Source: Verrucomicrobiaceae bacterium
GTDB lineage: Bacteria > Verrucomicrobiota > Verrucomicrobiia > Verrucomicrobiales > Verrucomicrobiaceae
DNA length: 46,647 bases
Direction: 5' to 3'
Assembly: GCA_027487315.1 (NCBI GenBank)
Contig: JAIYDW010000097.1
Span: 1 to 46,647 of the forward strand
In this document: in pieces, positions 4,302 through 30,973 of the stretch
How the letters are laid out: each line of letters begins with the position of its first letter
How positions within the stretch are numbered: the stretch's first letter is position 1
The notes under the pieces: model-generated
The model's database searches: none
Told to the model about the DNA's origin: nothing
The model's input: only the letters and a program-made list of their open reading frames with translations
Translations under genes and position numbers: made by a program

Positions 4302-5858
4302 CTACTGGCGTGCGGGCAGGTGAGGCAGCAGTCGGTCGAAGATGGCCTGCTGCTCTTTCAGCACGGCGGTGTGATCGGCTTTGTCGGCGAGGTTCTCGCG
4401 TTCGAGCGGATCGGTCTCGTAGTCGTAGAGTTCGGCAGCCTGCGCGCGGTTTCCAAAGATAGCTTTGTCGGCGCTGAAGTCGGCGGATCGCCATTCGATG
4501 TAGCGATAATGCGGTGTGCGGATGGACCAGCCCATGGTGGCATTTTCCCCTCGACTATGACTCATCTGAGTGAGAGCGGCTTCGTGGAGGGTCACGTCCT
4601 CGCCGCGCATCAGCGGCACGAGACTCTTGCCTTCGGCGTGGGCCGGGATTGGCAGGCCGACCAGCTCGCAGAGCGTCGGATAGACATCGAGGAACTCAGT
4701 GAGTTTCGTGACGCGGTTGCCTCCGTCGAAACCGGGTGCGGAGATGATGAGCGGTGCGCGCGCGGCGTCTTCGTAGTTGGTGACCTTTCCCCAGTGCCCG
4801 TGCTCACCGAGATGCCATCCGTGGTCGCCCCAGAAGCAGATGATGGTGTTGTCCGCCACACCCGTCTCTTTGAGCGTCTCCATCAACAAGCCGACCTGCG
4901 CATCAATGAAGGAGACGCAGGCGGCGTAACCGTGGACGAGTTCGCGCTGCTGCGGCTCGGGGATCGGTCCCGTTTTGGGCAAATCCGCGTAATCCCGCAG
5001 TTCGCCCGAGTTGCTGTAGAAGGCGAGATCGTGAGGGCTTCCCTGAGGGAGCTCTTGGAACGACGCGAGCGGAAGCGTGCTGCGGTCGTAGAGGTCCCAA
5101 TACTTCTTCGGCGCGATGAAGGGCAGGTGCGGCTTTACAAAACCGACCGCTAGAAAAAACGGTTTCTTTTGCGTGACGAACTCGCGAATGCGCTTCGCTG
5201 CAGTGTGGGCCACACCGCCATCGTGATAGGCGTGGTCGGGGATGTCGCACGCCTCCGTCGCGGGGCCTGAGATGGGCTTACCCTGCTTCAGGGCCTCGGC
5301 GAGCCGCGCCTTTGTCGCGGGATCCTGGTAGCCGCCCGGCGCGGGTTTCTCACCCGGTGCCAGTTCCCAGGGGCCGTAGGGCACCGTCCATGACACGGCG
5401 TCGTGCCCCTTGTCCACGGTGCGACCATCAAAGACCTTGTGGAGCGGATGCGTGGTGTAGCCATGATTCTTGAAATGCTGCGGAAGCGTCACCACGTCCG
5501 GCAACCGGGTGCGGAGCAGGTCCTGCGTCTGATCCGGATTGAGATACATACCGGTGCCGTCTGGTCGCAGACCGGTGAGCAAACTGAACCGCGTCGGCGC
5601 GCAGAAAGCTACCTGGCAGTAGTTAGCCATGAAGACCGTTCCCCGCGCCGCCAGCCGGTCGATATTCGGCGACTTGATCCAAGACGTGCCGTAACAGCCA
5701 AGCAAGGGCTTCAAATCATCGGAGACAACAAAGAGGACGTTAGGCTTCTTCAGGGATGCATGTGCGAACATTCCAGCCATCGGAGCAAGCAGCAGCAGCG
5801 CGATGAAAAAAGCGCGATGAAAAAGTTGGAGACAGAAAAATGGATTTCTGTTCCTCAT
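4302..5858 (-). CDS. Sulfatase, iduronate-2-sulfatase-like (S1 formylglycine family)
   Basis: A 518-residue secreted sulfatase. After an N-terminal signal (hydrophobic to about residue 34) comes the metal-binding strand VLFVVSDDLKPLLGCYG. The formylglycine site CAPTR has its cysteine at 86, in the canonical C-x-P-x-R form. Later motifs include WGDHGWHLGEHGHWGK and TNYEDAARAPL, typical of iduronate-2-sulfatase-like enzymes. Maturation would need a formylglycine-generating enzyme, and none is encoded in this window. Its ATG overlaps the TGA of the upstream sulfatase by four bases, implying translational coupling. The substrate cannot be read from sequence; the alpha-galactosidase downstream suggests a galactose-containing sulfated polysaccharide. 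Confidence 0.92.
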   Translation of the reverse strand: MRNRNPFFCLQLFHRAFFIALLLLAPMAGMFAHASLKKPNVLFVVSDDLKPLLGCYGTSWIKSPNIDRLAARGTVFMANYCQVAFCAPTRFSLLTGLRPDGTGMYLNPDQTQDLLRTRLPDVVTLPQHFKNHGYTTHPLHKVFDGRTVDKGHDAVSWTVPYGPWELAPGEKPAPGGYQDPATKARLAEALKQGKPISGPATEACDIPDHAYHDGGVAHTAAKRIREFVTQKKPFFLAVGFVKPHLPFIAPKKYWDLYDRSTLPLASFQELPQGSPHDLAFYSNSGELRDYADLPKTGPIPEPQQRELVHGYAACVSFIDAQVGLLMETLKETGVADNTIICFWGDHGWHLGEHGHWGKVTNYEDAARAPLIISAPGFDGGNRVTKLTEFLDVYPTLCELVGLPIPAHAEGKSLVPLMRGEDVTLHEAALTQMSHSRGENATMGWSIRTPHYRYIEWRSADFSADKAIFGNRAQAAELYDYETDPLERENLADKADHTAVLKEQQAIFDRLLPHLPARQ

Positions 5859-7324
5859 CTTTTTGTCTCCAATCTTTTTGTCGTTATAAACCGGAGCTGC
5901 TCAGCCAGCGCGGGAATCTGTGCACCAGCTTCGACAGTTCCAGCGAGGTTCACCGTTTCGAGCGGGTCGGCCTTTTCGTCGTAGAGTTCCCTTGCGACGA
6001 CATCACCGGTTTTGAAGTCGCGCCACTCATGGTAGCTCCAGCGGTCGGTTTTGAGAGCGTAGCCCATCACTTGCGGCAAGGCCTTCGGACCGCCGCCCCA
6101 GTAGAGCGCGGGGCGTGGATGCTGCGTGAGCGCGGCAGCTTTGACGGACGCACTGAAGTCCTTCAGAACTGGCACGAGGCTGGTGCCTTCAAGCTGAGGA
6201 GGAGAGGGAAGGCCACTGAGGTCCGTGAGCGTGGGAAAGATGTCGATCAACTCACTGATGGCGCTCGTCTTCGCGCCGCCCTTTCCGATGCCAGGCGCGC
6301 TGATGATGAGCGGCACTCGCGCGTCCCACCCGAACAAGGTCATCTTGCCCCAAACATCGTGCTCGCCCAGATGGAAGCCGTTGTCGCCAATGATGACAAC
6401 GATCGTGTTGTCGCGGAGCTTCAGTTCATCAAGCGCATCCAGCACGCGGCCAAACTGCGCGTCAGCGAAACTCATCGCGGCATAGTAGCCGTGGCGGATC
6501 TCGCGCTTCGTTTCCTCATCGAGCGTGCGAGGGGCATTCGGCTCGCCGAGAATTTCGTGGTTCGCGTGAAAAGCGATCTCGGGCGCGTTGCGAGGCCGCG
6601 CCGGCGTCTCGATGGCCGGAATGTCCTCGCGGCGATACATGTCCCAGTAGCGCTTCGGGACCTTGTAAGGCGTGTGCGGCTTGAACAGGCCCAGCGCAAG
6701 AAAAAAAGGCTCCGGCTTCTTCGCAAGCGCACGCAACTCGGTGATCGCAAGGCTGGCTGACACATGGTCAAAGCAAGCGTCATCCGGCAAATCACGATTC
6801 TCGCATAGCAGATCCTTCGCAAGGTTCGGCGGCAAAGCGGCCCTATTTGGCAATGCAAACTCATCCTTCGTTTTGCCGCCGGTGCGACGATCCGGCACGC
6901 TCAGCGTCTTAAAGTCCGCCTCCTTGCCATAACCGCCAAGCACCTTGCCGATGCTCATGGACGTGTAGCCGTGCTGCATGAACCACTGCGGCATCGTGAC
7001 CACATCGGGATGCAGATCATACAGATACTTCGTCATGCTCGTGATTCCGAGCGAATCCGGCCTGCGCCCGCTCATGAACGAAGCGCGTGATGGTCCGCAG
7101 ATCGGCTGCTGACAGAAGTTCCGCGTGAACACCGTGCCCCGAGCCGCAAGCCGGTCGAGGTTCGGTGACTTCGCCACGGGATCACCGTAGCAACCCAGGC
7201 GGTTGTTCAGATCGTCGAAGACGACGAAGAGAACGTTGGGCATTTTCGCTGGCGCAGCATCGGCGGCTGGCGCGGCTTGGCACGCCAGCGCGAGAAGAAA
7301 AAGAGCCCGCATGACGGTCGGCAT
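5855..7324 (-). CDS. Sulfatase, iduronate-2-sulfatase-like (S1 formylglycine family)
   Basis: A sulfatase of about 490 residues with a signal peptide ending near AADAAPA. The metal site is VLFVVFDDLNNRLGCYGD and the formylglycine site is CGPSR (Cys78 counting from a GTG at 7330). Further motifs are IGDNGFHLGEHDVWGK and ARVPLIISAPG. Two starts are possible. A GTG at 7330 gives a four-base overlap with the stop of the DUF1552 gene, and an ATG at 7324 lies just after that stop; the ATG is used here. Its stop overlaps the next sulfatase's start (ATGA). The two adjacent sulfatases are clearly related but diverged, so they probably act on different sulfate positions rather than being a recent duplication. 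Confidence 0.92.
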   Translation of the reverse strand: MPTVMRALFLLALACQAAPAADAAPAKMPNVLFVVFDDLNNRLGCYGDPVAKSPNLDRLAARGTVFTRNFCQQPICGPSRASFMSGRRPDSLGITSMTKYLYDLHPDVVTMPQWFMQHGYTSMSIGKVLGGYGKEADFKTLSVPDRRTGGKTKDEFALPNRAALPPNLAKDLLCENRDLPDDACFDHVSASLAITELRALAKKPEPFFLALGLFKPHTPYKVPKRYWDMYRREDIPAIETPARPRNAPEIAFHANHEILGEPNAPRTLDEETKREIRHGYYAAMSFADAQFGRVLDALDELKLRDNTIVVIIGDNGFHLGEHDVWGKMTLFGWDARVPLIISAPGIGKGGAKTSAISELIDIFPTLTDLSGLPSPPQLEGTSLVPVLKDFSASVKAAALTQHPRPALYWGGGPKALPQVMGYALKTDRWSYHEWRDFKTGDVVARELYDEKADPLETVNLAGTVEAGAQIPALAEQLRFITTKRLETKR

Positions 7325-7326
7325 GA

Positions 7327-8658
7327 TCACACTTCCTCCAGCATGAGTTTCGCATCGCCGAAGGCCTTCGGGCGCACTTCCATCTTGTCCATCATCGACA
7401 TGAAGAGGCGGCAGAGTTGGCGGTCGGGTTTGTCTTGGTAGTCGAGCGTGCGGCCAGTCTTGAGACGGCCACCGGCACCGCCGAGCACGATCACGGGGAG
7501 CTGGTCGTTGTCGTGCTTCGCTCCCGCCATCATGCTGGAGCAGTGCATGAGCATGGTGTTGTCCAACAGCGTGCGTTCGCCTTCCTGGATGCTCTCGAGC
7601 TTCCGGGCGAGGTAGGCGAGCTGCTCCATGAAGAGCTGGTTCACTTTGAGATAGTCCTCGCCGTCACTGTGGCTCAGCAGGTGGTGAATCATGTAGTCGA
7701 TGCCGTGACCGGGCTGCTGAATGCTCGGCAGGTTCGGGAAGCGCAGGGCGCTGTGGTCGTTGTTGAGCTTCAGCGTGGTGATGCGCGTGGTGTCGGTCTG
7801 GAAGCCGAGCACGAGGATGTCGCACATCAGCTTCATGTGCTCCGCGATGTCCTGCGGGATGCCGTCGGCGGGGCGGTGCATGTTCGGTTTTTCCAAAGTG
7901 GGCCGCCAGCCTTGCAACTCGCCGCGCTTGCCTGCGTTTTCGATGCGCTTCTCCACCTCACGCACACTGTCGAGATACTCGTCAAGCTTGCGTTGGTCGC
8001 TGGCACTGATGTCACGGCGCAAATCCTGAGCATCGCCCAAAACAGCATCCAACACGCTCTTGTCGGCGGGTGAGGCGTCGTCTTTGAAGAGACGATCAAA
8101 CGCGAGCGCAGGATAAAGCTCCAGCGGTGTCGGCGTTGTGGGCGATGACCACGAAATATGCGAGCTGTAGAGCATCGAATAGTTCTTGTGCACCGACGGG
8201 TTCGACTTCTCACACGCGAGCACAAGGCTCGGCACCTTGGTGCTGCGGCCATACGTTTGCGCGAGCATCTGATCAAAGCTCGTGCCCGAGCGAATCTCAC
8301 CGCCACTCGCGATAGGCGCACCAGAGAGCATGTTTCCCGTCTGCGAGGAGTGGATGTTCCCCTTGCGAGCTTCCTCATGATAGAGGCCGCGCACAAACAG
8401 CAGCTTCTCTTTGAACTCACTCAAAGGTGCGAGCACACGGCCAAGCTCCATCGCCTTCCCTTCCCCCTTGGCCCACCATTCCTTGGATTGGAAGCCATTG
8501 CCGGAAAAAGTCACGCACAGCCGCACGGGGGCTTCGCTGGCCGGTTTGTTCTTTTTCGGCTCATCACCCCAGACATTGACGGATTCCATCCACGGCAGTG
8601 CCATGGTGACGCCAGTCCCGCGAAGGAAGGCACGACGGTTGAAATGGTGGGTGTTCAT
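7327..8658 (-). CDS. DUF1552 family protein with twin-arginine signal
   Basis: A 443-residue protein with a Tat signal, NRRAFLRGTG (Arg8-Arg9), so it is probably exported folded. The body matches DUF1552: VRLCVTFSGNGFQSKEWW near the start, SRKLESIQEGERTLLDN-like helical segments, and the ending MSMMDKMEVRPKAFGD. Genes of this family in Planctomycetes and Verrucomicrobia usually sit beside DUF1587/DUF1592 cytochrome proteins, as does the gene at the left edge here. The biochemical role is unknown. It is the second gene of the operon, 26 bp after the regulator, and its end overlaps the first sulfatase. Confidence 0.9.
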   Translation of the reverse strand: MNTHHFNRRAFLRGTGVTMALPWMESVNVWGDEPKKNKPASEAPVRLCVTFSGNGFQSKEWWAKGEGKAMELGRVLAPLSEFKEKLLFVRGLYHEEARKGNIHSSQTGNMLSGAPIASGGEIRSGTSFDQMLAQTYGRSTKVPSLVLACEKSNPSVHKNYSMLYSSHISWSSPTTPTPLELYPALAFDRLFKDDASPADKSVLDAVLGDAQDLRRDISASDQRKLDEYLDSVREVEKRIENAGKRGELQGWRPTLEKPNMHRPADGIPQDIAEHMKLMCDILVLGFQTDTTRITTLKLNNDHSALRFPNLPSIQQPGHGIDYMIHHLLSHSDGEDYLKVNQLFMEQLAYLARKLESIQEGERTLLDNTMLMHCSSMMAGAKHDNDQLPVIVLGGAGGRLKTGRTLDYQDKPDRQLCRLFMSMMDKMEVRPKAFGDAKLMLEEV

Positions 8659-15486: not shown

Positions 15487-17010
15487 ATGAAACACTTACT
15501 CACCCTTTTTTCGGCCATTTTCGTTCTTTTCGGCCAGACCCAAGCCGCAGATAAACCCAACGTCATCTTCATCCTCGCGGACGATCTCGGCATCGGGAAT
15601 GTCGGCTGCTATAGCGCGGACAACTACAAGACACCGCACATCGACAAACTCGCGGCCGAGGGCACGCGGTTCACCCAGTGCTTCACGGCGGCGCTTTGCG
15701 GCCCGTCGCGGGCAATGATCATGACCGGGCGCTATGCCTTCCGCAACGGTTCGAGCAATCAAGACGCCTGCATGGTGATGCCCAACAAGGAACTGCAACT
15801 GGCGCGGGTTTTCAAAAGCGCAGGCTATGAGACCTCCTTCATCGGCAAATGGGGACAACTTCCGGGCGATCCTGATGAGGCGGGCTTTGACGATTATCTG
15901 CGCTTCAACGGCAGCGGCGTTTACTGGAGCCGCAAGCCCGATAAGCTCGAAGAATACCTCGTGAACGGTCAGGAGCAGGAACTGGGCGTGAAGGAATACA
16001 TGCCAGACCTCATGCACGAGCGTGCCGTCCGCTTTCTGAAGTCCAGTCAGGACAAGCCTTTTTTCCTCTACTACTCCCTCGTCCATGTGCATGGCGACAT
16101 TCAGCCCACGCCCGATAGCTCAGCGGACAGCAAGGACCTCTTTGGCGACAACATCCTCTACATGGACAAACTCGTCGGTAAACTCGTCGCCGAACTCGAT
16201 GCGCTGAAACTCCGCGAGAAGACGCTCATCATCTTCATGGGCGACAACGGCACCGGCAAAGGCCAGAACCCGCTGTCCACCATCGGCGGGCGCAATCTCT
16301 CCGGCATGAAGGGCAGCATGCTCGAATGCGGCGGCCTCGTGCCCATGATTGCCAATTGGCCAGGCAAGACACCCGCTGGCAAAGTCAGCGCTGACTTGAT
16401 CGACTCGTCGGACTTTCTCACCACATTCGCGGAGCTCTCTGGCGGCAATTTGCCCAAAAACACGATCTTCGACGGTCACAGCATGGCCCCGCAACTCCGT
16501 GGTGAGGCCGGCCAGCCACGTGAGTGGGTCTTTAACCAACTCGCCGCCATGTGGTATGTGCGGGACGCGAAATGGAAGCTCAACGAGAAGAACGAACTCT
16601 ATGACATGAGCGAGGCCCCCTTTGCCGAAAAACTCGTTGCTGGCGATCATCCCGCTCGCGCTAAACTCGCCGCCGTGCTTGCAAAATTGAACCCCGCAGG
16701 CGGAATCCCCGACAGTGGCGACGGCACCGGTCGTCATGCGAACAAGGACAAGAAAAAGAAGGGCGAGGAACCCATGAAGAAGCCCGAGACGCCGCCAACG
16801 ACGCCTCTAACGGCGGAAGAGCAGGAGCGTGCCGCCAAGTTCGACAAACTCGACGACGCCAAGGCCGGCAAGCTCACCCGTGACTACTACACCACCCACC
16901 AATCCGATGCCGCTGCCGCTACGGAGCGATTCGACAAATACGACAGTGACAAAGACGGCTTCGTGAGCCGTGAGGAATACATCCTCAAAGGCAAGATGAC
17001 GAAGAACTAG
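15487..17010 (+). CDS. Sulfatase with C-terminal EF-hand-like tail
   Basis: A 507-residue secreted sulfatase. The signal peptide ends near TQA-AD. The metal strand is VIFILADDLGIGNVGCY and the formylglycine site CGPSR has its cysteine at 71. FIGKW and MGDNGTGKG follow. After the catalytic body (to about residue 415) comes a Lys/Pro-rich linker and a tail with TRDYYTTHQSDAAAA and a perfect EF-hand loop DSDKDGFVSREE (486-497), predicted to bind calcium. The next gene carries nearly the same tail. It may anchor the enzyme or bind calcium-bridged polyanions; that is inference. It is 25 bp downstream of the alginate lyase. Confidence 0.92.
   Translation: MKHLLTLFSAIFVLFGQTQAADKPNVIFILADDLGIGNVGCYSADNYKTPHIDKLAAEGTRFTQCFTAALCGPSRAMIMTGRYAFRNGSSNQDACMVMPNKELQLARVFKSAGYETSFIGKWGQLPGDPDEAGFDDYLRFNGSGVYWSRKPDKLEEYLVNGQEQELGVKEYMPDLMHERAVRFLKSSQDKPFFLYYSLVHVHGDIQPTPDSSADSKDLFGDNILYMDKLVGKLVAELDALKLREKTLIIFMGDNGTGKGQNPLSTIGGRNLSGMKGSMLECGGLVPMIANWPGKTPAGKVSADLIDSSDFLTTFAELSGGNLPKNTIFDGHSMAPQLRGEAGQPREWVFNQLAAMWYVRDAKWKLNEKNELYDMSEAPFAEKLVAGDHPARAKLAAVLAKLNPAGGIPDSGDGTGRHANKDKKKKGEEPMKKPETPPTTPLTAEEQERAAKFDKLDDAKAGKLTRDYYTTHQSDAAAATERFDKYDSDKDGFVSREEYILKGKMTKN
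16874..16913 (+). repeat. 40-bp direct repeat, copy 1 (inside sulfatase tail)
   Basis: These 40 bases, encoding THQSDAA and flanking residues of the tail domain, are identical to 18639-18678 in the next sulfatase gene, although the catalytic parts of the two genes are well diverged. This points to a recently shared or converted tail module. Confidence 0.85.
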
Positions 17011-17029: not shown

Positions 17030-18763
17030 ATGAAAACGATTCTCACCGCCTTCCTGCTAACCCTACCCACGCTCCAAGCAGCGACTAAACCGAACATCCT
17101 TTTCATCTCCGTCGATGACCTGCGACCCCAGCTCGGTTGCTACGGAGACAAGCTGATCCAATCGCCCAACATCGACCGCATCGCCGCACGCGGTATCGTC
17201 TTCAACAAAGCCTACACTCAGCAGGCGGTGTGCAGTCCGTCACGCACGGCGATCATGACCGGTCTGCGACCCGATGTAACGAAGGTTTGGGACTTGGACA
17301 CTCATTTCCGCCCAGCACAGCCGGATTGCATCACGCTGCCCCAGCATTTCAAAGCGAACGGCTATCAGTGTGAAGCGCTAAGCAAGATCTATCATAAAGG
17401 GCATGAAGACGGTCGCTCTTGGACCGCGCCGCATTGGTATCCGTTTGGTCGATCCGTGGACACCGATCTCGTGGACTGGACCAAGCAGATTGTCACCAAG
17501 CACGACGTCAACGTCTTGGAATACTCCTCGCCTGAAGCCAACGACACCTCGGTGAAAAAGAAGGACAAAGAAGCCAAGGCCGGGCCTTCATTTGAAGTCA
17601 GCTCCAAGGACGACAGTGAGCTTCCTGATGGTGCCACAGCGGCAGAGGCCGTGAAGCGGCTCGCAACGCTCAAAGCCAAGGGTCAACCCTTTTTCCTCGC
17701 GGTGGGTTTCTTGAAACCGCATCTGCCTTTCGTCGCACCAAAGAAATATTGGGACCTCTACGACCCCAACAGCATCCCTTTGCCGGCCATCGATCATCTC
17801 CCTGAAGGGGCTCCGCCGTATGTCGGCCACACCAACGGCGAAGTTCACAACTATCCAGGTGTGCCAAAGGGAGACCCCATCCAAGCTGACTTCGCCAAGA
17901 ATCTGCGTCATGGCTACTATGCCTGCATCAGCTACATGGATGCTCAGGTCGGGAAGGTGCTTGACGCGCTCGAAAAGGAAGGTCTCGCCGACAATACCAT
18001 CATTGTCCTCTGGGGTGATCACGGCTGGCAGCTCGGTGATCACGGCTTGTGGCACAAGCACACCAACTTCGAACTCGCCACCCGTGCGCCGTTGCTCATC
18101 AGCGTTCCAGGTTCGAAGACCGCCGGTCAAAAGTGCTCCGCGACCGTCGAGTTTGTCGATGTGTATCCCACTCTCGCGGAGCTGTGTGGCCTCCCGAATC
18201 CCACCGGTCTCTCGGGCCGCAGCTTGAAGGCCTTCATCAACAATCCATCGGCACCGTCCACCAAAGTCGCCATCAGCCAATACCCGAAAAAAGCCCCGGA
18301 AGGCCAAGTCATGGGCTACAGCATTCGCAACGACCGCTACCGCGTCACCTTCTACCGCCTACGCAACGGCTCCCAAGTCGTCGGCACCGAGCTTTACGAT
18401 GAACAAAACGACCCCAACGAAACAGTCAGCCTCGCCAACAAACCCGAGCACAAAGACCTGCTCGAAACCCTCGCCAAACACCTCCCGCCCGTCGGCTCCG
18501 ATGCCAAACCCGAAGGCGCAGAACCCGTGAAGAGCAAAAAGAAAAACAAGGACAGGCCCGAGGCTCCCACCACAACCGCCGGGACTGAAGATCGCGGTGC
18601 CCGCTTCGACAAACTCGACAAGGACAAGCTCGGCAAAATCACCCGTGACTACTACACCACCCACCAATCCGATGCCGCCGCTGCAGCCGAACGCTTCACG
18701 AATTGGGATACCGACAAAGACGGCTCCCTCTCGCGCGATGAATACATAAAGCAAGGGAAGTGA
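17030..18763 (+). CDS. Sulfatase, iduronate-2-sulfatase-like, with C-terminal EF-hand-like tail
   Basis: A 577-residue secreted sulfatase. The signal peptide ends near LQA-AT. The metal site is ILFISVDDLRPQLGCYGD and the formylglycine site CSPSR has its cysteine at 68. WGDHGWQLGDHGLWHKH and TNFELATRAPL place it with iduronate-2-sulfatase-like enzymes, closer to the sulfatase at 4302 than to its immediate neighbour. After the catalytic body there is a Lys-rich linker and a tail repeating that of the preceding sulfatase, with EF-hand loop DTDKDGSLSRDE (560-571). It is the last gene of the ECF operon, converging on the minus-strand sulfatase at 18847. Confidence 0.92.
   Translation: MKTILTAFLLTLPTLQAATKPNILFISVDDLRPQLGCYGDKLIQSPNIDRIAARGIVFNKAYTQQAVCSPSRTAIMTGLRPDVTKVWDLDTHFRPAQPDCITLPQHFKANGYQCEALSKIYHKGHEDGRSWTAPHWYPFGRSVDTDLVDWTKQIVTKHDVNVLEYSSPEANDTSVKKKDKEAKAGPSFEVSSKDDSELPDGATAAEAVKRLATLKAKGQPFFLAVGFLKPHLPFVAPKKYWDLYDPNSIPLPAIDHLPEGAPPYVGHTNGEVHNYPGVPKGDPIQADFAKNLRHGYYACISYMDAQVGKVLDALEKEGLADNTIIVLWGDHGWQLGDHGLWHKHTNFELATRAPLLISVPGSKTAGQKCSATVEFVDVYPTLAELCGLPNPTGLSGRSLKAFINNPSAPSTKVAISQYPKKAPEGQVMGYSIRNDRYRVTFYRLRNGSQVVGTELYDEQNDPNETVSLANKPEHKDLLETLAKHLPPVGSDAKPEGAEPVKSKKKNKDRPEAPTTTAGTEDRGARFDKLDKDKLGKITRDYYTTHQSDAAAAAERFTNWDTDKDGSLSRDEYIKQGK
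18639..18678 (+). repeat. 40-bp direct repeat, copy 2 (inside sulfatase tail)
   Basis: Identical to 16874-16913. It lies in the tail-coding part of the second tandem sulfatase. Confidence 0.85.
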
Positions 18764-18846: not shown

Positions 18847-20214
18847 CTACTTTTTGCCTCCTTTCTTCCCACCCTTGCCTCCACCCTTCCTTGCAGGCTC
18901 CTTGGAGGAATCGTAGTTGGGATTCGGTTTGGGCATCGCAGCCCCCACTTCACGCAAATAGTCCGCAAGCTGTTTGGCAAGGCTTGTTGCCAGCTCCGGC
19001 TTGGCTTCAGCGAGGTTCCGACTCTCGCCGATGTCGGCTTGGAGATCGAAGAGCTGGTTTTGACCGCTTTCGTAGAAGTGAATAAGCTTCATGTTTCCAC
19101 TAAAAATCGCCGAGTGCGGGGAGTCGCCCTGATAGTGCGGAAAATGAAACACCAACTCCTCGCGAAGCCGCCCCACACGATCGGACGAGCCACTCAGCAG
19201 ATGCGAAAGGTCGCCGCCGTCGAGCTGTTTGGGCAGCGCTGCCTTCCCACCCGCCCAACGACAAAACGTCGGGAAAAAATCATACCCGACAACTCGTTGA
19301 TGACACCACGAGTTCGCCTCGATGCCTGGCCCCCGAATGATCAAGGGCACACGAATACCGCCCTCCCACACATCTCCCTTTCCGCCACTCAACGTGCGGC
19401 GATTCGATCCGCCGTTGTCGGACATGTAGATGACGATGGTGTTCTTCGAGAGCTCCATGGCATCCAGCTTGGTCAGCAACTCGCCCACACCGCGATCCAG
19501 ATCCTCCGCGATGGCTGCACGACCGACTTCCTTGTCGTCTCTGCCACCGGCGAGCTTCCGGTATTTCTCTATCAGCGTGGGAGTGGCGTTTTCAGGATAA
19601 TGCAGTGCATTGTAGCTCATCTGGATGAAGAACGGCTTCCTGGCCGCCTGGCTGCGCTTCATGAAATCCACCGCTCTTGCTCCCATGCCAAAGATGTCCA
19701 CGGGATTGGGCGGCAAATGCGGCCCGGCATCCTGATTGCCGGTGTCGCCATCGCTCTCATCGTAGCCGTGAGCGGCGGGGCCACCGCCCGAGAGATGCCA
19801 TTTGCCGTAGTGGGCCGTCGCGTAGCCCGCCGACTTCAACATATTTCCGATCGTGACCTCGTCATCGCGAATGCTTTTGCGATTGTCGCCTTCGATCAAA
19901 CGATGCCCCATCTCAGGCGGAGCCGCTTTCGTCCACCCCAGCGCCGCCGGATTGCGCCCCGTTTGCAGGCTGATGCGTGTCGGCGAGCACACCGGCGCGG
20001 GCGCATACGCCGCGCTGAATCTCATGCCCTGTTCCGCGAGTCGCGCGATGTTCGGTGTCTGCACGATGCTGCTCTTGGAGTCCGGCATGTCCGGATGCAT
20101 CTGGCAGGACAGCCCGCTCCACGCCTGATCATCCGAAAGCATGAACAGGATGTTCGGCGGCGCGGCGGCGAAGGCACCGGAGGCTACGAGTAGCAGGAGG
20201 AGAAGCGATTTCAT
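18847..20214 (-). CDS. Sulfatase (arylsulfatase-like) with basic Lys/Gly tail
   Basis: A 455-residue secreted sulfatase. The signal peptide ends near AFA-AA. The metal strand is ILFMLSDDQAWSGLSC and the formylglycine site is CSPTR (Cys76). HYGKWHLSGGG and YMSDNGGSNRRTLSGGKGDVWEGG are typical of arylsulfatase-A-like enzymes acting on external substrates. It ends in KGGGKGGKKGGKK, a strongly basic low-complexity tail that could bind sulfated polyanions or the cell envelope (inference). The upstream neighbour on the same strand, 18 bp away, contains similar Lys/Gly runs. It is the last gene of the minus-strand operon headed by the giant fusion. Confidence 0.92.
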   Translation of the reverse strand: MKSLLLLLLVASGAFAAAPPNILFMLSDDQAWSGLSCQMHPDMPDSKSSIVQTPNIARLAEQGMRFSAAYAPAPVCSPTRISLQTGRNPAALGWTKAAPPEMGHRLIEGDNRKSIRDDEVTIGNMLKSAGYATAHYGKWHLSGGGPAAHGYDESDGDTGNQDAGPHLPPNPVDIFGMGARAVDFMKRSQAARKPFFIQMSYNALHYPENATPTLIEKYRKLAGGRDDKEVGRAAIAEDLDRGVGELLTKLDAMELSKNTIVIYMSDNGGSNRRTLSGGKGDVWEGGIRVPLIIRGPGIEANSWCHQRVVGYDFFPTFCRWAGGKAALPKQLDGGDLSHLLSGSSDRVGRLREELVFHFPHYQGDSPHSAIFSGNMKLIHFYESGQNQLFDLQADIGESRNLAEAKPELATSLAKQLADYLREVGAAMPKPNPNYDSSKEPARKGGGKGGKKGGKK

Positions 20215-23005: not shown

Positions 23006-26000
23006 TCAAGGAGTGTAACTCACTCGATAGAATGCCCGCAGTCCGTTCACGCGGGCGGGAAGCGTATCGGTGTAAGTGGCATTCGTGTTCGTGTTGGTGA
23101 AGGTGAGGGTGTCGATGGTGGTCCAGGTGATCAAATCGGTGCTCCATTGAATTTGATACGGTTTGTTGGGGATCGCGTTCCAGCGGAGGCCGACTTGGCC
23201 GGGGGCGACATTGGCGACTTCGATGGGGGGGCTGACCTTTGGCGCGAGGACGAAGCTGTGGGAGATGCTGCGGTTGATGCGGGTGGGGGTTTCGTCGTTG
23301 AAGACGCTGGTGGCATCGGGCGGCATGGGGTCGGTGGCGGTGCGGTAGCTGCGGACGTAGTCGGCTACGGCTTGATCGGGGCCGACGGTGACGCGGATGT
23401 GGCCGCTGTTGGGCAGGAGGTAGCTGGTGCTGTTGGCTCCGAGATTGACGTATTGGCCGTCCACGGCGCTGCCGAGGCTGGTGTAGTTCGGTGTGCCGGG
23501 CTGCGGGCATTCGAGATAGACGACACCGTCGCGAGTCTGGTAGCCGTAGAGGTGATCGTGGCCGTGGAAGACGACGTTGACCTTGTTTTGCACGAGCAAA
23601 TCATGGATCGGCATGTCCCAGCCGGGGCGCTTGGTGGCAAAGCCGGGGCTGCCGTCGATGTTCTTGCCGCCCCACTCGTATTTGTCGCTCACTTCGATGC
23701 CGCCACGTGCGGCGAACTGCGGGGTGGGCACGTTGTTGATGATGGCCTGGGTGCTGCCGCCGACGATGTGGTGCATGAAGACGAACTTGTATCTCGCGCT
23801 GCTGTTTTTGAGCGTGTCGCGCAGCCAGTCATACTGCGCTTTGCCGAGGCTCCAGTTCCACGCGTCGTTGGAGGAGTTGGGGTTCGTGTTCGTGTTCCAG
23901 AACGGATCGAGCATGATGAAGAGGGCTTCGCCCCACTCGAAGGCGTAGTAGTCTTCCAACAAGCCAAGCGTGCCGCCGGTGTAGTCCTTCGGTGTGGGAT
24001 TGCCAGCGTAGAAGCCATCGGGTGTCGGTGCGGGGTAGAAGGCTTTGCGGGCCTTCAAATCCCAGGCGGGGATGTTGTTCTGCTTGTCGGTGGCGGCGTT
24101 GAAAAGGTAGCCGTATTCTGCCTCGTGATTGCCGAGGCCGAAGAAGAACGGGATGCTGTGGCAGGCACGCTCAAAGGCATTGCGGAAGATGATGGCGCGG
24201 TTGTTGATGCTCGTCTGATTGATCGTCACGCCGCCGCCCCACTTCGGTGGCACGCCGAGCAGGCCGTCGGCGAGCTTGTCGGTCATGAAGATGTCGCCCA
24301 CGTCCATGTGGAGGTCGGGCGCATCGAGGCTGATGTTCTGCATGGCACGCCAGAAGAGCTGCATGTCGGTGTTCACGTCGATATGCGGGTCCGCAGTGAC
24401 GGTGAAGCTGAACGTCGTGCCGCGAGGCCGAGCGGTGTGGAAGCTGCGCTCGCCGCGAGCATTGTAGAACGTCGCCCCGACATTGCGATGGCGCACGCGG
24501 TAGTAATACTCGGTGTCAGGCTGCAAGCCGGTGATCGGGATGCGGATGGGGTTCTTGAACTCAGGCTTGGCGTTGTCGATGTTGAACGTCGTGGGCGTGG
24601 TGGCGAGCGTGTATTGGCCGGGAGCGGTGCCGTATTCGACAAAGACCTGCTGATTGGCCGAGGCGATGAGGTTCACAGTCACGCCGTCAGTTTTCGGCAA
24701 GGTGAGGAACTCCGCGCCGAGGATGGTCGCGTCAGTCAAAGCGGAGTTGACGGTGTAAGTGTAGTTACTGGACGTTGGGCTCATGGTGGTGGTGCCATTG
24801 TTGTTGGTGGCCGTGACGTGGAAGCTCACCGTCCGGCCTCCCGCCTGAGCAGGGATCAATGCTCCCCACACGCCATCATTGGCCGTGCCATCGCCGTGAT
24901 TGCCATCGTCAAACATGGCCAGTGTCACTGGCGGCGAGGGTGCGTTGGTGACGACGATGATGTCGTCAATCTGCACCTTGGATGCGCTCGCTCCTCCGAG
25001 ACCGTTCCCGGCGAACTGGAAGCGCAACTTGAGCGTGCTCACCAACTCCGATGGCGCGAGATCATAGTGATAGACGCTGGTGTAGCTGTGATTACTTCCA
25101 TCCACTTCGCTCAGGCGCGTGTTCCAGGTGATGCCATCCGTGGAGGTTTGGAAGGTCCAACCGAGGCCCGCAGTGAGGTTGGATGTTGCCACCCAGAACT
25201 CGACATAGCCAGCGCTGCCAGCGGCGTTGATTGCGCTCGCGGTGGTCACGGAGCGGTCGCCCATCGTGGTGGTGCCCCGCTTGAACTCCAGGCCACAAGG
25301 ATTGCCTGCGCCGTGGTTGGCATTCGTGGTCTGCCCGATGTCCGTGGTGGATGCTGGCGTGGGCAGCCAGGCATTGTCGCAGCCATCACCGGTCCAAGGC
25401 GTGGCTGCTGCCGAGCGCATCGTCTCGGCAAACAACGGGTTGGTCTGCGGCACGCCATTGTCATAGATCAACTGCACCTGTGAAACGGAAGTGCCTGCTG
25501 TCGGTGTCACCGTGGCGAGCACATACGTTGCGTCCAAATACGTGGGAGCAGTGGGGCCGGTGCCCACATTGGCAATCGTTGGTCCACCTGCGGTCACCGT
25601 GAGCGTGCCCGCATCGCTCGTGGTGCTGCCGATGTTGTTCGAGACGATGACATCATACAAGCCTGCATCGCTGGGAGCGACGTTTGTCAGCGTCAATGTG
25701 GCCGCATAAGTGCCTCGGACGGCGACCGCCAAATCATCGGTGATCTGCGTGACGATTCCGCCAGCGACATTCGAACCACCTTTGCGCCACTGCACGGTCG
25801 GTATCGCGCCTGGCCAACTGGTGAATGGCGCATACAGCGTGATGGTGCCGCCTTGAGGCACGCTGTTTGTGATGAGCGGCGGGCCAACATAGGGTTTCAT
25901 GTTTCCGACGCTGATCGCCGTGATCGCATTGGTCAATGTGGTGACGATGCTGGCATAGGCGCTATTGGCGATGAGGTCCGTGGTCTCCTGCGGATCGTCG

Positions 26001-29000
26001 GTGAGGTTGTAAAGCTCGGGCGTGAGCACGTTGTTCACGCGGCCACGGATGAGTTTAAAATCCTTCACGCCGCCGTTCACCGGATCGGTGAACTGATAGA
26101 TCGCAATCGGCGCTGCACTCACGGTGACGAGTGGCGAGCCACGCGAGACAGTGGTGCTGTTACTGGCAGAAAGCAGAGCGGGCCAGAGATTCACGCCATC
26201 CAGCGGCTTGGTGTTTTGCGGCGTCACACCGACAGCCGCGCAGAGGGTGGGGAAGACATCGCCGACCCACATGGATTGATTACTGATGACACCAGCGGGC
26301 AGCACACCGGGCCATTTGATGCCTGCGACTTCACGCATCCCGCCTTCATAGCTGTCGCCCTTCGTGCCACGCAGCGGATCATTGAGCGAGCCTTTGGTTT
26401 CATCGCCACCGTTGTCACCAAACCAGACGACGAGCGTGTTGTTGGCGATGCCTGCTGTATCGAGCGCGGCCAGCACCCGGCCAATCTCCTGATCCATGCC
26501 ATCCACAGCAGCGGAGATAAGGCGACGATTGGCATTCGTGACGCCGAGGTTTTGATATTTCGTAATCAAGCTCGCCGGAGCCGAAACGGGGCCGTGGATC
26601 GAGTTGAAGGCCAAGTGCAGCAACATCGGCTGCGCAGGGTTGCGGTTCTGAATGTGAGCGATGGCCTTGTCCGCGAGCAATGTGGGCGACCAGCCGCCAT
26701 AGCCACGTGAATCGGTGTGTTCGCTAGGTCCATCTTGCTGCACGCCATTCAGCCACCAGTCAGGAATGTCGAGCGACTCGGCCTCGGCGCTGTGGTGAGT
26801 GTAGTAATCAATCGCGCCGGAATACTGCCCGTAGAACGAGTCCCAACCGCGATTGTGCGGCGCATATTGCAGACCTTCCTTGATCACGCGCACCGGGCTG
26901 CCGTTCACGTTGAAGTGATACAAGTTCTTGTCGCTGCCGCCGAGATGCCACTTGCCGCACATGAATGTCTGGTAGCCCGCCGCCTTGAAGGTCTGAGGCA
27001 TGAGATGCTCGCTCAAATCAAGGCCACGCTCGTTGTTAGTGCCGTGACGAATCGCGTTGCGGCCCGTCATCAAGGTGGAGCGAGTCACACTACAAACTGT
27101 CGTCGCATAGAAGCGCTCCAGACGAATGCCCGTCGTCGCAAAGCTATCCATGTTCGGCGTCTGAATCGGCACCTGGCCTGCGGGCGTGTGATAGCCGACA
27201 TCGCCCCAACCTTGGTCATCGGTGACGATGATGACAACGTTCGGAGGTGTGACATTGGCACCGCTGATCGTGAGCGTGAAGACTCGTGTGGCAATGCGGC
27301 CTACGCTATCGGTTACCTTCAACGTGAAGTTAAAGGTGCCGTTCGCTGTTGGCGTGCCACTGAGGACACCCGCACTGCTCAAGGTAAGACCCGCTGGCAA
27401 AGTGGAGCCTGCATTAACGCTCCAGGCATAGCCCGAGCCACTGCCACCACTGGCGACAAGCGTCTGTGAGTAAGCACCAGTGGCATTGGGCAAGGTGGCT
27501 CCCGTCGTGATGCTAGGTGCCGGACCGGTGGTGTAACTGCCCGCATTGGTGATCGCCGTTGTCTGAGCATTGCTGTCCGTCGCGACGATGGAGTAAGTGA
27601 TCGTCGTTCCCGAAACCTGCGCTGGAATGACGGCAGTGAAGCTGCCGCCATTCGCAGGCCCGCTCATCGTCACCGGAGTCGGCGCTGAACCGGATGTCGA
27701 GACGACCACGATGTCATCAATGTTCACCGTCGAGCCTGTGGGGCCGCCAACACCATTGCCGACAAAGCCGAATCGCATCTTCAGAGTGCTGGTCAGGTCA
27801 GTGGCGAGGAGGTTGTAATGATAGAGCTGGTAGCCATGCACGCTGCCACTGAACTCCGATACTCTCTCGGTGAATGTTGTGCCATTTGGCGCAAGTTGGA
27901 AGGACCAGCCGTTCGTGCCCGTGAGTCCAACCGTTCGCAGCCAGAACTCGACATAGTTTGTCGTGGTCGATCCGCTGGTGAAGGTGCCCGTCGCATTGAT
28001 CGGATTCGTTGTCGTGATCATCGTTCGCGTCGGGTCCGTGGTGGCGGCTGAGCCTTTGCTAAAGACCACGCCACAACTACCCGTGATGCCCGTCGTGTGA
28101 TTCGACGTGCCAGCCGTCTGTTTGATATTGCCCGCGCCATCTTGCGAGTTCACCGTCCACGCATACGTCGCGCCCGAGCCATCCCAGCCGCCGGTGGTCG
28201 TCGCCGTGGTGGACATGGGTTCATTAAAGATGGTGGACGTTGTCTGCGCACCGGTGCTGTAGGTCAAAGTCGCGCTGGTGATCGTGGCACCACTGGCGGG
28301 CGTGATCGTTACGCTGACCGTCGGGGTGTCCACATCGCTCGGCACGGCGGGACTGGTGGCAATGCCAGTGATCATCGGAGCTGGAATGGCACCCGTGCCC
28401 GTGAGAGCGATATCAAAAGCCGCGCCCACGCTGCTGTCACTGCTGGCGATGTGCAGCGCGGCTGTTTTTGCGCCAGCGCTGCTCGCATTGAAATGCACGA
28501 CAAAATCCGAAGTCGCTCCGATGGCGATGCTCGATGCTGGCGATGTCGTCACGGTGAAAAGCGAGCTGTGCGTGCCGTCGATGCTCAAGCTGATGCCCGT
28601 GAGCGCGGTGGTGCCATTGTTGGTGATCGTGAAGGTCTTCGACAGCGTGCTGCCCACATTCACACTGCCATAGCCGACCGTGCTGAGGCCATCCGTCAGC
28701 ATCGTCGCCCCTTGCGACACCGCGATCTGCGTCGGCGTGAGTGCGGCTGTGCGCACGGCAAAGACAGGATACGACGAGGTCTTTGGCTCATGGCTGATGA
28801 TGCCCTGCGCATTACGCTGTGGATTGGAGGTCGTATTCAATCCAAACTCCACGACCAGCGCGGCGAGCGCGTCATTGTTCTGCGTCGTCGATGTCCAATA
28901 CGAAGTCGCCGTGGCCGATGGGAAGAGCAACCGATGCGCTGGCGGCTTGATGTTCGTGAGGCTGGTGAAAGTGGTCATCGTGTAATCCACCAGCGACTCC

Positions 29001-30973
29001 ATTTCCTTCACGTTCGGCATGCGCCAGTCGCTGAAGCCCGCATCCGTGAGTCCTTCGATGTCTGCCAAAGCCGCTGACCATGTCGCCGCTGTGCGAGGCA
29101 ACTGCTTCCACATCAAACCCGTATCGAGGTCCGTGACGGTGCCGTCGTTGTTGCTCACGTAGTTGTGGCCGTTCGTCTGCTTGGCGCCGCGCACATAGCG
29201 GGCGTGATAGCGCAGGGTGCCACCTGCGCTGATGGTTTCCGACTTCGGCTTCGGCCCCAGACCGCCGCCTTCATTCGTGCACCACACATTTGTCGTGCTC
29301 GTGCCGTAAAGATCGCTGCTCCACCAGTAGCCCGCCCGTGCCACGGGATGGTTCGGGAAGAAGGCCGTGTTCAGGGCCGGGTTCGATACCTGATGATTGA
29401 ACAGGCAGAACAACTCATGCGGTGTCGGCAGCCGCCAATCATTGTAGCCGCCCGTGGTCACGCTCGCTGCATTCGCGACGGCGTTTTCCCAAGTGGACTC
29501 GCCATTGTCCACGCTCTGCCACATCAGGCCGGTGACGTTGTCGGTGATGGTGCCGTTGCCGTTGTTGGTGAAAGCCTGGGCATGGATCGTGTAGTCGCTG
29601 TCCTCGCCATCACCTGCCGAACCGGTGAAATTGCCCGTCTGTGAGGTGTCCGGCAGCGCGATCATGCTCTTGCCGCTCATCGGGTAGGTGGTGACGCGAT
29701 TGCCGTTGCTCGTGTAAGTCGTCGTCGTTGTGCCGGTGGTCGGATGCCGATAGGTCATCGTGTAGCTCTTGGGCACCGCTTTGCGGTTCAAACGCCAGCA
29801 CACGTCATACGTCACGCTGCTCACCGTGTAGCGCATGAGGAAATCATCCTCGCTCGGCGTTCCGCTCACGTTTTCGATAAAGTGACCGCTGCCATCCACG
29901 CTCAGCGCCACGGGATTTTTGAAGGCGATGATCGCCGCGCCTGGCACCTGCTGCGCCGTGTAGCCACCGGTGCCTGAGGCACGCATGTTCGACACACTCG
30001 GCTGGGGATCGATCTGCGAGTCAAAATTCACCACCACGCCATGCATGGCATTCATCATGAAAGGGTTCGAAGGCGTCCAGCTCGCCGTGCCCGAGTTGTA
30101 AGTGCCTCGTGCATGATAATGATAGCCCCAGGTGCCGTGATCGTGGCCGCCATCTGCATCCAGCGTCTGCATGGGCGAGCCATCCGGCTCCACATAACCA
30201 TACACCGGATAGCCATCCAGCGCCCAGGCGATGGGTTTGTCATTCCCCAGCACCGGGATCAAATGCACCGGATAAATGTGGTAGTGATAATCATCCGCCA
30301 GACCGCAGTGACCGCCATAGATGTCCAGCTCGCCGATATCATAGCTGAACTGCCCGGTATTGTTGCGCGGATTAAAAATCGGCACGCCATCCGACCCTAG
30401 CGCCACCGCCCCGCGCAGAAAGTTCCCATTCAGCGAGATCGGCGATGCCGCAGGCACGGGCACCAGCGGCAGCTTCCACACATTCGGCTGCCCAAAGCCC
30501 AGCGAACCCGCGTTATTCGTCCCATTCGTCGTCCCGATGAAATACGAAACTGGCATCGGCACCTGCTGCTGCCACGTCGTGATCCCCACCATCAGATTCG
30601 GCTGCCGCGTGCGATCCGGGATACCGTCGCTCTCGACGTAAAAGTAGTTCGCGTCATTGTAGAACCGCAGCTTCGGCTTGAACGGCAAAAACGAAGCTGA
30701 CATCAGCTCCCCATTCCCCGGAGCCGTCAAAGTCGAGCCTTGAGCGAGCATCGCGAGGTTTGTCATCATTGAGGCCACCTGCACGTCCTCCGTCACCACT
30801 GGCTTCGGTGCTGGTTTGTAGTCCGCCTTCGCCAAAGCCATCCGCTTGGCCATAAACTCATCCGCGATGTGCTTTCGCAGCATTTCCTTGTCCATCGGCA
30901 GCCCGCTGGAGTCGGTGGTATGAGCATGCAGCGCCAGCGGCGCGAGGCAGAGAAGGGCAACAAAAGGTTTCAT
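23006..30973 (-). CDS. Giant secreted YHYH / DUF1566 / sulfatase / metallophosphoesterase fusion
   Basis: A 2,655-residue exported protein (signal to about residue 18). Domains in order: YHYH (about 85-330, motifs at 229-232 and 284-287); two DUF1566/Lcl-type domains (about 470-600 and 610-745; GLMWQ...NDWRLP, GLMWK...SDWRMP); choice-of-anchor-D-like domain (746-860); module A (861-1150); putative Ig domain (1150-1240); sulfatase (about 1243-1690; VTDDQGWGD, GKWHLGG, WFGDNGGDE); Ig-like domain (1698-1795); module B (1796-2075), homologous to module A; fibronectin-like plus metallophosphoesterase (2075-2590; Asp2195, His2197, GNHE, MHH, GHDH); and a short C-terminal beta module. The formylglycine site reads C-S-V-T-R (Cys1294) rather than C-x-P/A-x-R. 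The frame is unbroken throughout. The related single-domain proteins in this window support the domain calls. A dual sulfo- and phospho-esterase role is inferred. Confidence 0.9.
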   Translation of the reverse strand: MKPFVALLCLAPLALHAHTTDSSGLPMDKEMLRKHIADEFMAKRMALAKADYKPAPKPVVTEDVQVASMMTNLAMLAQGSTLTAPGNGELMSASFLPFKPKLRFYNDANYFYVESDGIPDRTRQPNLMVGITTWQQQVPMPVSYFIGTTNGTNNAGSLGFGQPNVWKLPLVPVPAASPISLNGNFLRGAVALGSDGVPIFNPRNNTGQFSYDIGELDIYGGHCGLADDYHYHIYPVHLIPVLGNDKPIAWALDGYPVYGYVEPDGSPMQTLDADGGHDHGTWGYHYHARGTYNSGTASWTPSNPFMMNAMHGVVVNFDSQIDPQPSVSNMRASGTGGYTAQQVPGAAIIAFKNPVALSVDGSGHFIENVSGTPSEDDFLMRYTVSSVTYDVCWRLNRKAVPKSYTMTYRHPTTGTTTTTYTSNGNRVTTYPMSGKSMIALPDTSQTGNFTGSAGDGEDSDYTIHAQAFTNNGNGTITDNVTGLMWQSVDNGESTWENAVANAASVTTGGYNDWRLPTPHELFCLFNHQVSNPALNTAFFPNHPVARAGYWWSSDLYGTSTTNVWCTNEGGGLGPKPKSETISAGGTLRYHARYVRGAKQTNGHNYVSNNDGTVTDLDTGLMWKQLPRTAATWSAALADIEGLTDAGFSDWRMPNVKEMESLVDYTMTTFTSLTNIKPPAHRLLFPSATATSYWTSTTQNNDALAALVVEFGLNTTSNPQRNAQGIISHEPKTSSYPVFAVRTAALTPTQIAVSQGATMLTDGLSTVGYGSVNVGSTLSKTFTITNNGTTALTGISLSIDGTHSSLFTVTTSPASSIAIGATSDFVVHFNASSAGAKTAALHIASSDSSVGAAFDIALTGTGAIPAPMITGIATSPAVPSDVDTPTVSVTITPASGATITSATLTYSTGAQTTSTIFNEPMSTTATTTGGWDGSGATYAWTVNSQDGAGNIKQTAGTSNHTTGITGSCGVVFSKGSAATTDPTRTMITTTNPINATGTFTSGSTTTNYVEFWLRTVGLTGTNGWSFQLAPNGTTFTERVSEFSGSVHGYQLYHYNLLATDLTSTLKMRFGFVGNGVGGPTGSTVNIDDIVVVSTSGSAPTPVTMSGPANGGSFTAVIPAQVSGTTITYSIVATDSNAQTTAITNAGSYTTGPAPSITTGATLPNATGAYSQTLVASGGSGSGYAWSVNAGSTLPAGLTLSSAGVLSGTPTANGTFNFTLKVTDSVGRIATRVFTLTISGANVTPPNVVIIVTDDQGWGDVGYHTPAGQVPIQTPNMDSFATTGIRLERFYATTVCSVTRSTLMTGRNAIRHGTNNERGLDLSEHLMPQTFKAAGYQTFMCGKWHLGGSDKNLYHFNVNGSPVRVIKEGLQYAPHNRGWDSFYGQYSGAIDYYTHHSAEAESLDIPDWWLNGVQQDGPSEHTDSRGYGGWSPTLLADKAIAHIQNRNPAQPMLLHLAFNSIHGPVSAPASLITKYQNLGVTNANRRLISAAVDGMDQEIGRVLAALDTAGIANNTLVVWFGDNGGDETKGSLNDPLRGTKGDSYEGGMREVAGIKWPGVLPAGVISNQSMWVGDVFPTLCAAVGVTPQNTKPLDGVNLWPALLSASNSTTVSRGSPLVTVSAAPIAIYQFTDPVNGGVKDFKLIRGRVNNVLTPELYNLTDDPQETTDLIANSAYASIVTTLTNAITAISVGNMKPYVGPPLITNSVPQGGTITLYAPFTSWPGAIPTVQWRKGGSNVAGGIVTQITDDLAVAVRGTYAATLTLTNVAPSDAGLYDVIVSNNIGSTTSDAGTLTVTAGGPTIANVGTGPTAPTYLDATYVLATVTPTAGTSVSQVQLIYDNGVPQTNPLFAETMRSAAATPWTGDGCDNAWLPTPASTTDIGQTTNANHGAGNPCGLEFKRGTTTMGDRSVTTASAINAAGSAGYVEFWVATSNLTAGLGWTFQTSTDGITWNTRLSEVDGSNHSYTSVYHYDLAPSELVSTLKLRFQFAGNGLGGASASKVQIDDIIVVTNAPSPPVTLAMFDDGNHGDGTANDGVWGALIPAQAGGRTVSFHVTATNNNGTTTMSPTSSNYTYTVNSALTDATILGAEFLTLPKTDGVTVNLIASANQQVFVEYGTAPGQYTLATTPTTFNIDNAKPEFKNPIRIPITGLQPDTEYYYRVRHRNVGATFYNARGERSFHTARPRGTTFSFTVTADPHIDVNTDMQLFWRAMQNISLDAPDLHMDVGDIFMTDKLADGLLGVPPKWGGGVTINQTSINNRAIIFRNAFERACHSIPFFFGLGNHEAEYGYLFNAATDKQNNIPAWDLKARKAFYPAPTPDGFYAGNPTPKDYTGGTLGLLEDYYAFEWGEALFIMLDPFWNTNTNPNSSNDAWNWSLGKAQYDWLRDTLKNSSARYKFVFMHHIVGGSTQAIINNVPTPQFAARGGIEVSDKYEWGGKNIDGSPGFATKRPGWDMPIHDLLVQNKVNVVFHGHDHLYGYQTRDGVVYLECPQPGTPNYTSLGSAVDGQYVNLGANSTSYLLPNSGHIRVTVGPDQAVADYVRSYRTATDPMPPDATSVFNDETPTRINRSISHSFVLAPKVSPPIEVANVAPGQVGLRWNAIPNKPYQIQWSTDLITWTTIDTLTFTNTNTNATYTDTLPARVNGLRAFYRVSYTP

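Follow-up and report, generated by a model that had tools for sequence, protein, structure and literature searches.

The window analysed here, a stretch of 46,647 nucleotides from a Verrucomicrobiaceae bacterium, carries on its reverse strand an open reading frame (23006-30973) for a giant multi-domain protein of 2655 amino acids, with an N-terminal hydrophobic stretch that, judged by eye, resembles a secretion signal. Pfam finds in this protein a full Sulfatase domain (PF00884, residues 1244-1583; 2e-43 and 149 bits against a cut-off of 25 bits), together with two Lcl_C stretches (the better at 28823-29143), Ig-type domains, one of them an Ig I-set domain that follows the sulfatase and is retained in homologues (25610-25864), a purple acid phosphatase N-terminal domain (24440-24688) and a calcineurin-like metallophosphoesterase domain (23549-24409), all on the reverse strand. 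The S1-type sulfatase domain with its C-terminal part (ORF residues 1243-1700; 25874-27247, reverse strand) was delimited from Pfam, the PDB sequence match, an AlphaFold2 model and Foldseek. A sulfatase and a phosphoesterase are joined in one chain, with the calcineurin-like domain behind the purple acid phosphatase N-terminal domain (23549-24688, reverse strand), and a calcineurin-like phosphoesterase is likewise present in three homologues (L062, L068 and L077). Another homologue of the giant protein (L034, on contig C11 of genome G044) has an open frame of 5354 amino acids. An Rfam scan of the window and a PADLOC search with the giant protein gave no match.

The formylglycine site of this domain reads C-S-V-T-R. 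It is encoded at 27080-27094 on the reverse strand, by the codons TGT AGT GTG ACT CGC from 27094 to 27080, and corresponds to residues 1294-1298 of the giant protein, with the cysteine at position 1294. An earlier note on this DNA had placed the site here and had described the motifs TDDQ, GKWHLG and GDNGG as intact; translation of the ORF bears out both statements, and all three motifs are found in the domain. It also contains the auxiliary LMTGR motif, a second His (in SIHGP) and the Lys of RGTKG. The earlier note was also correct that the five remaining sulfatases in this stretch have C-A/G/S-P-S/T-R: their translations read CAPTR (4302-5858) and CGPSR (5855-7330) on the reverse strand, CGPSR (15487-17010) and CSPSR (17030-18763) on the forward strand, and CSPTR (18847-20214) on the reverse strand.

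C-x-P-x-R is the textbook formylglycine tag, on which the aldehyde tag of biotechnology is based. Among the 4058 sequences of SulfAtlas, position 3 of the motif is Pro in 87% and Ala in 369, while each other residue accounts for less than 1% (passages of PMC5066984), which agrees with the claim of the earlier note that Val is unusual here. The consensus is printed as [CS]-x-P-x-R, or with Pro or Ala at position 3 (passages of PMC5066984 and PMC6189696), and the window domain, with Val, fails the updated PROSITE-style pattern, in which position 3 is Pro or Ala. The same passages of PMC5066984 keep the rarer position-3 residues within the sulfatase family; Val is a departure from the PROSITE-style pattern, not an exclusion from the S1 family. 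A known parallel, the C-x-A-x-R sulfatases, similarly lacks Pro at position 3 and keeps the Cys and Arg, but Val, Ile and Thr are bulkier than Ala and branched. No literature on Val at position 3 was found in titles and abstract openings, and published Val substitutions may exist beyond that scope.

The modelled domain has an intact S1 sulfatase fold, with no sign of a decayed enzyme. The AlphaFold2 model built from 51 sequences has a pLDDT of 91.3 and a pTM of 0.92, and supersedes an earlier model from 22 sequences (pLDDT 62). With this model as query, Foldseek ranks human arylsulfatase B (1fsu) first (1.1e-36), followed by S1_19 carrageenan sulfatases, and arylsulfatase B is also first in the PDB sequence search (7.3e-55). 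The site cysteine begins a helix in the model (residues 52-61 of the domain), in agreement with the catalytic helix described for sulfatases in passages of PMC5066984. The fold and active-site residues are like those of arylsulfatase B and the S1_19 enzymes; the window domain differs from them in having Val for Pro and in sitting within a 2655-residue chain with Ig and phosphoesterase domains.

The residue at position 3 is conserved, as Val, Ile or Thr, among the orthologues of the domain. From a scan of genome contigs we kept 80 loci; close domains (at least 58% identity) occur in 13 of 57 related genomes, and at the aligned site the near relatives read CSVTR, CAVTR, CSITR or CATTR. At 42% identity, the outlying L044 reads CSLTR, and the next relatives, at ∼35% identity, have CTPTR or CSPTR. 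In an alignment of 22 domains from the clade of giant proteins, 52-99% identical to that of the window, every domain has Val, Ile or Thr at position 3 and none has Pro or Ala. The earlier note had proposed this alignment as a check, and had named orthologues with Pro or Ala as the outcome that would speak for a strain-specific change. Such a change, or a sequencing or assembly error, is ruled out by this uniformity across many assemblies, among them the complete genome CP011265.1 (IMCC26134), which has a CSVTR member of the clade at ∼76% identity, and we give it next to no credence even though GTG is a single base from the Ala codon GCG. The Val codons themselves differ between genomes (GTG and GTC).

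The rest of the site does not vary. The residues that are invariant in all 22 clade domains, in domain numbering, are C52, T55, R56, T61-G62-R63, the metal-site pairs D10-D11 (27215-27220) and D278-N279 (26411-26416), the active-site K99 and H101 of K99-W-H101 (26945-26953), H218 (26594-26596) and K296 (26360-26362), all on the reverse strand. In the wider alignment of 51 domains, there is still no variation at C52, R56, D10, D11, K99, H101, H218, D278 or K296, and almost none at N279. Because Val, Ile or Thr occurs throughout the clade, with varying codons and an invariant site around it, the change at position 3 in the giant clade is old and has been retained.

This conservation also bears on the alternatives that the earlier note had left side by side, a modifying enzyme that tolerates Val, or an unmodified domain that acts as a binder or a phosphatase-like enzyme. 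A catalytically dead sugar binder within an adhesive giant protein could be imagined from the Ig, Lcl_C and other non-catalytic modules that surround the domain, and from a motif that departs from the textbook rule. We consider this quite improbable. The metal and catalytic residues are invariant down to ∼50% identity, and a binder has no need for a Cys, an Arg, two Lys and two His. Tolerance of Val by the modifying enzyme fits better than binding, because the invariant Cys, Arg, Asp pair, D278/N279, K99, H101, H218 and K296 would be needless for a binder.

Val at position 3 is also found outside the giant clade. The genome from which the window comes has 117 sulfatase matches, and we transcribed by hand the motifs of 106 of these, leaving out nine partial matches and two loci with no readable site (L225 and L228). 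Position 1 is Cys at all 106 sites; position 3 is Pro at 95, Ala at 5, Val at 3, Ser at 2 and Thr at 1. Two sulfatase-like proteins of this genome are without the position-5 Arg (L206 on contig C113, CRPAL; L221 on contig C76, CSPSK) and are possibly inactive. A second very long sulfatase protein (L161, C56:68966-69886; open frame of 1756 amino acids) has an ordinary CSPTR. At the DNA level, the pattern C-x-V-[ST]-R..L.TG is present in 24 of 59 genomes of the family, with none in the backward control, and in 15 of 247 genomes of the phylum, with one in the backward control. On a tree of 169 domains (one midpoint-rooted FastTree run that includes some duplicate tips), residues of the Val type have about seven separate locations, namely the giant clade, groups with CSVSRAQ (16 tips), CVV[ST]RTS (4 tips), CGVSR (3 tips) and CTVSR (3 tips, adjoining a node with a support of 0), and two single tips. 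Based on these separate places on the tree and the three of 106 sites in the genome itself, we read Val at position 3 as a minor but recurrent variant at the level of the family, not a one-off.

Neither of the known maturases is recognisable in this genome. The yardstick for the formylglycine-generating enzyme (FGE) was an FGE encoded by another genome of this order; its matches to solved FGEs reach 4.6e-119, and it shares with the best of them the stretch GGSFLCHESYC. The genome has 16 PF03781 matches, the best of which is 28.6% identical to this yardstick. The C-x4-C pair of FGE, which we take to be its copper ligands, is present at the FGE site in none of these 16 proteins. One of them (L148) has a C-x4-C among its first residues, unrelated to the FGE site. 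The best match to the anSME family TIGR03942 scores 45.9 bits, where the cut-off is 349.45; this radical-SAM protein, on contig C13, was rejected as an anSME since it resembles NirJ1/AhbC. Copper FGEs bind Cu(I) with two active-site cysteines, and their minimum consensus is given as CXPXR (passages of PMC12123546). In two Kiritimatiellales strains with one anSME each, 20 and 11 genes have FGE domains, which the authors suspect of being inactive or of serving a different function (passages of PMC6388578); this accords with the idea that many of the PF03781 proteins found in these phyla are something other than FGEs. The maturase of this genome seems, as judged by homology, to be neither a recognisable copper FGE nor an anSME, and the CxPxR rule may not be the relevant rule here, because it was derived from FGEs and none is recognisable in this genome.

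The same lack extends through much of the family. A recognised or possible maturase was found in 16 of the 57 related genomes: 12 have an ordinary FGE, two have a divergent FGE-like protein with the cysteine pair and two have anSME only. A narrower FGE pattern had missed G004, G008, G014, G020, G022 and others, and was replaced by a protein search and a looser pattern. The FGE-like subgroup scored as a possible maturase (L299, L300 and L309) has GGSWWC with a second Cys five residues on and a divergent tail. A further protein (L297, in G044) has ∼39% identity to FGE along most of its sequence and is without the cysteine pair; its genome contains the giant clade, and no maturase was otherwise recognised there. 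Within the family, neither FGE nor anSME was recognised in 27 of 36 genomes, that of the window included. Eighteen of these 27 are at least 95% complete, and the median number of sulfatase candidates over all 27 is 130, in first-look counts that exceed confirmed matches (146 versus 117 for the genome of the window). Titles and abstract openings gave no literature on missing maturases in this bacterial family, or on Prosthecobacter in combination with sulfatase and formylglycine. Across the phylum sample, the FGE pattern is present in 57 of 247 genomes; absence of FGE in CP011265.1 and other phylum genomes is judged by this DNA pattern, not by protein search.

The lack of a recognisable maturase is one reason to consider that Cys1294 remains unmodified, the domain being a slow sulfatase or a phosphatase-like hydrolase that uses the Cys itself. 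An unmodified choline sulfatase with a CxPxR site still catalysed many turnovers, at a low kcat (passages of PMC6189696), and a phosphoesterase domain is present on the same chain. This is the leading rival to modification, and we still regard it as unlikely. The site, Arg included, does not vary across the 22 clade domains, and a general failure to modify in this lineage would affect all 106 Cys sites read in the genome, which is hard to reconcile with the keeping of more than 100 sulfatases.

The idea that Val at position 3 marks genomes without a known maturase is supported within the family: C-x-V sites occur in 15 of the 27 genomes that have no known maturase and in none of the nine that have one (Fisher 0.005, uncorrected for kinship). 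Likewise, none of the 13 relatives with the giant clade has a recognised FGE or anSME, compared to 16 of 57 relatives overall (Fisher 0.012), and the complete genome CP011265.1, taken from its coordinates to be G218 of the phylum sample, has the giant clade, with neither the FGE pattern nor an anSME match. Across the phylum, the idea is rejected: the FGE pattern is present in 8 of 15 C-x-V genomes, a higher share than among other genomes and so in the opposite direction (Fisher 0.008), and 7 of 14 have anSME (the genome of the window being scored separately). Since the genomes are related and not independent, all of these P values are a guide only, and the link within the family may reflect kinship. 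Genomes with C-x-V sulfatases variously contain FGE, anSME, both enzymes or neither of them; this distribution makes a special maturase for Val unlikely and is most simply read as tolerance of Val by several kinds of maturase. The presence of Val-type sulfatases in genomes with an ordinary FGE or anSME further favours the tolerance that the earlier note had suggested.

A related proposal is that a third, undescribed maturase with a looser rule for position 3 serves the family. The many sulfatase-rich family genomes without FGE or anSME, and the association with C-x-V within the family, point in this direction, while the FGE- and anSME-containing C-x-V genomes of the phylum indicate that tolerance of Val is not special to genomes lacking these enzymes. 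We consider the proposal possible, although on balance we lean against it. We are more doubtful still of its full form, in which an undescribed enzyme, distinct from both copper FGE and anSME, would mature ∼100 Cys-type sulfatases in most members of the family, with the giant C-x-[V/I/T]-T-R sulfatases as natural substrates read by a rule unlike CxPxR. A third maturase is compatible with our preferred explanation, as it concerns only which enzyme acts, and our confidences in the several readings do not sum to one.

Our preferred explanation, which we consider probable on the comparative evidence, is that the domain is a working S1 formylglycine sulfatase whose maturase tolerates Val. In the ancestor of the giant multi-domain clade, the Pro of C-x-P-x-R would have been replaced by a branched residue, Val here and Ile or Thr in relatives. 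The maturase of the cell would read the Cys, the Arg and the downstream T-G-R, accept Val at position 3 and convert Cys1294 to formylglycine, the hydrate of which would attack sulfate esters in the usual way. The substrate is probably an extracellular polysaccharide, and the phosphoesterase and Ig modules may serve as additional tools in the same polypeptide. The analysis itself shows the site and its conservation, an intact fold with the active-site residues in place, and repeated origins of Val; conversion, activity, location and substrate are inferred. Against it stand the printed requirement for Pro, or Pro and Ala, at position 3, and the confinement of the giant clade, as found here, to genomes in which neither FGE nor anSME was recognised, such that the known maturases could refuse the giant-clade site.

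Two points go beyond the earlier note, the repeated occurrence of Val at the level of the family and the genome without a recognisable maturase. A precedent for the latter exists in Escherichia coli, in which Cys-type sulfatases are matured with no identified enzyme (Benjdia 2007, as given in passages of PMC6189696); there, mostly foreign sulfatases were expressed, whereas here the genome itself has more than 100 sulfatase matches. The sulfatase families with a conserved Val are ready tests of what maturases read, and could yield new tag sequences. The apparent absence of both known maturases from much of a family rich in sulfatases bears on the question of a third maturation system, for which the family genomes without a recognised maturase are named places to look.
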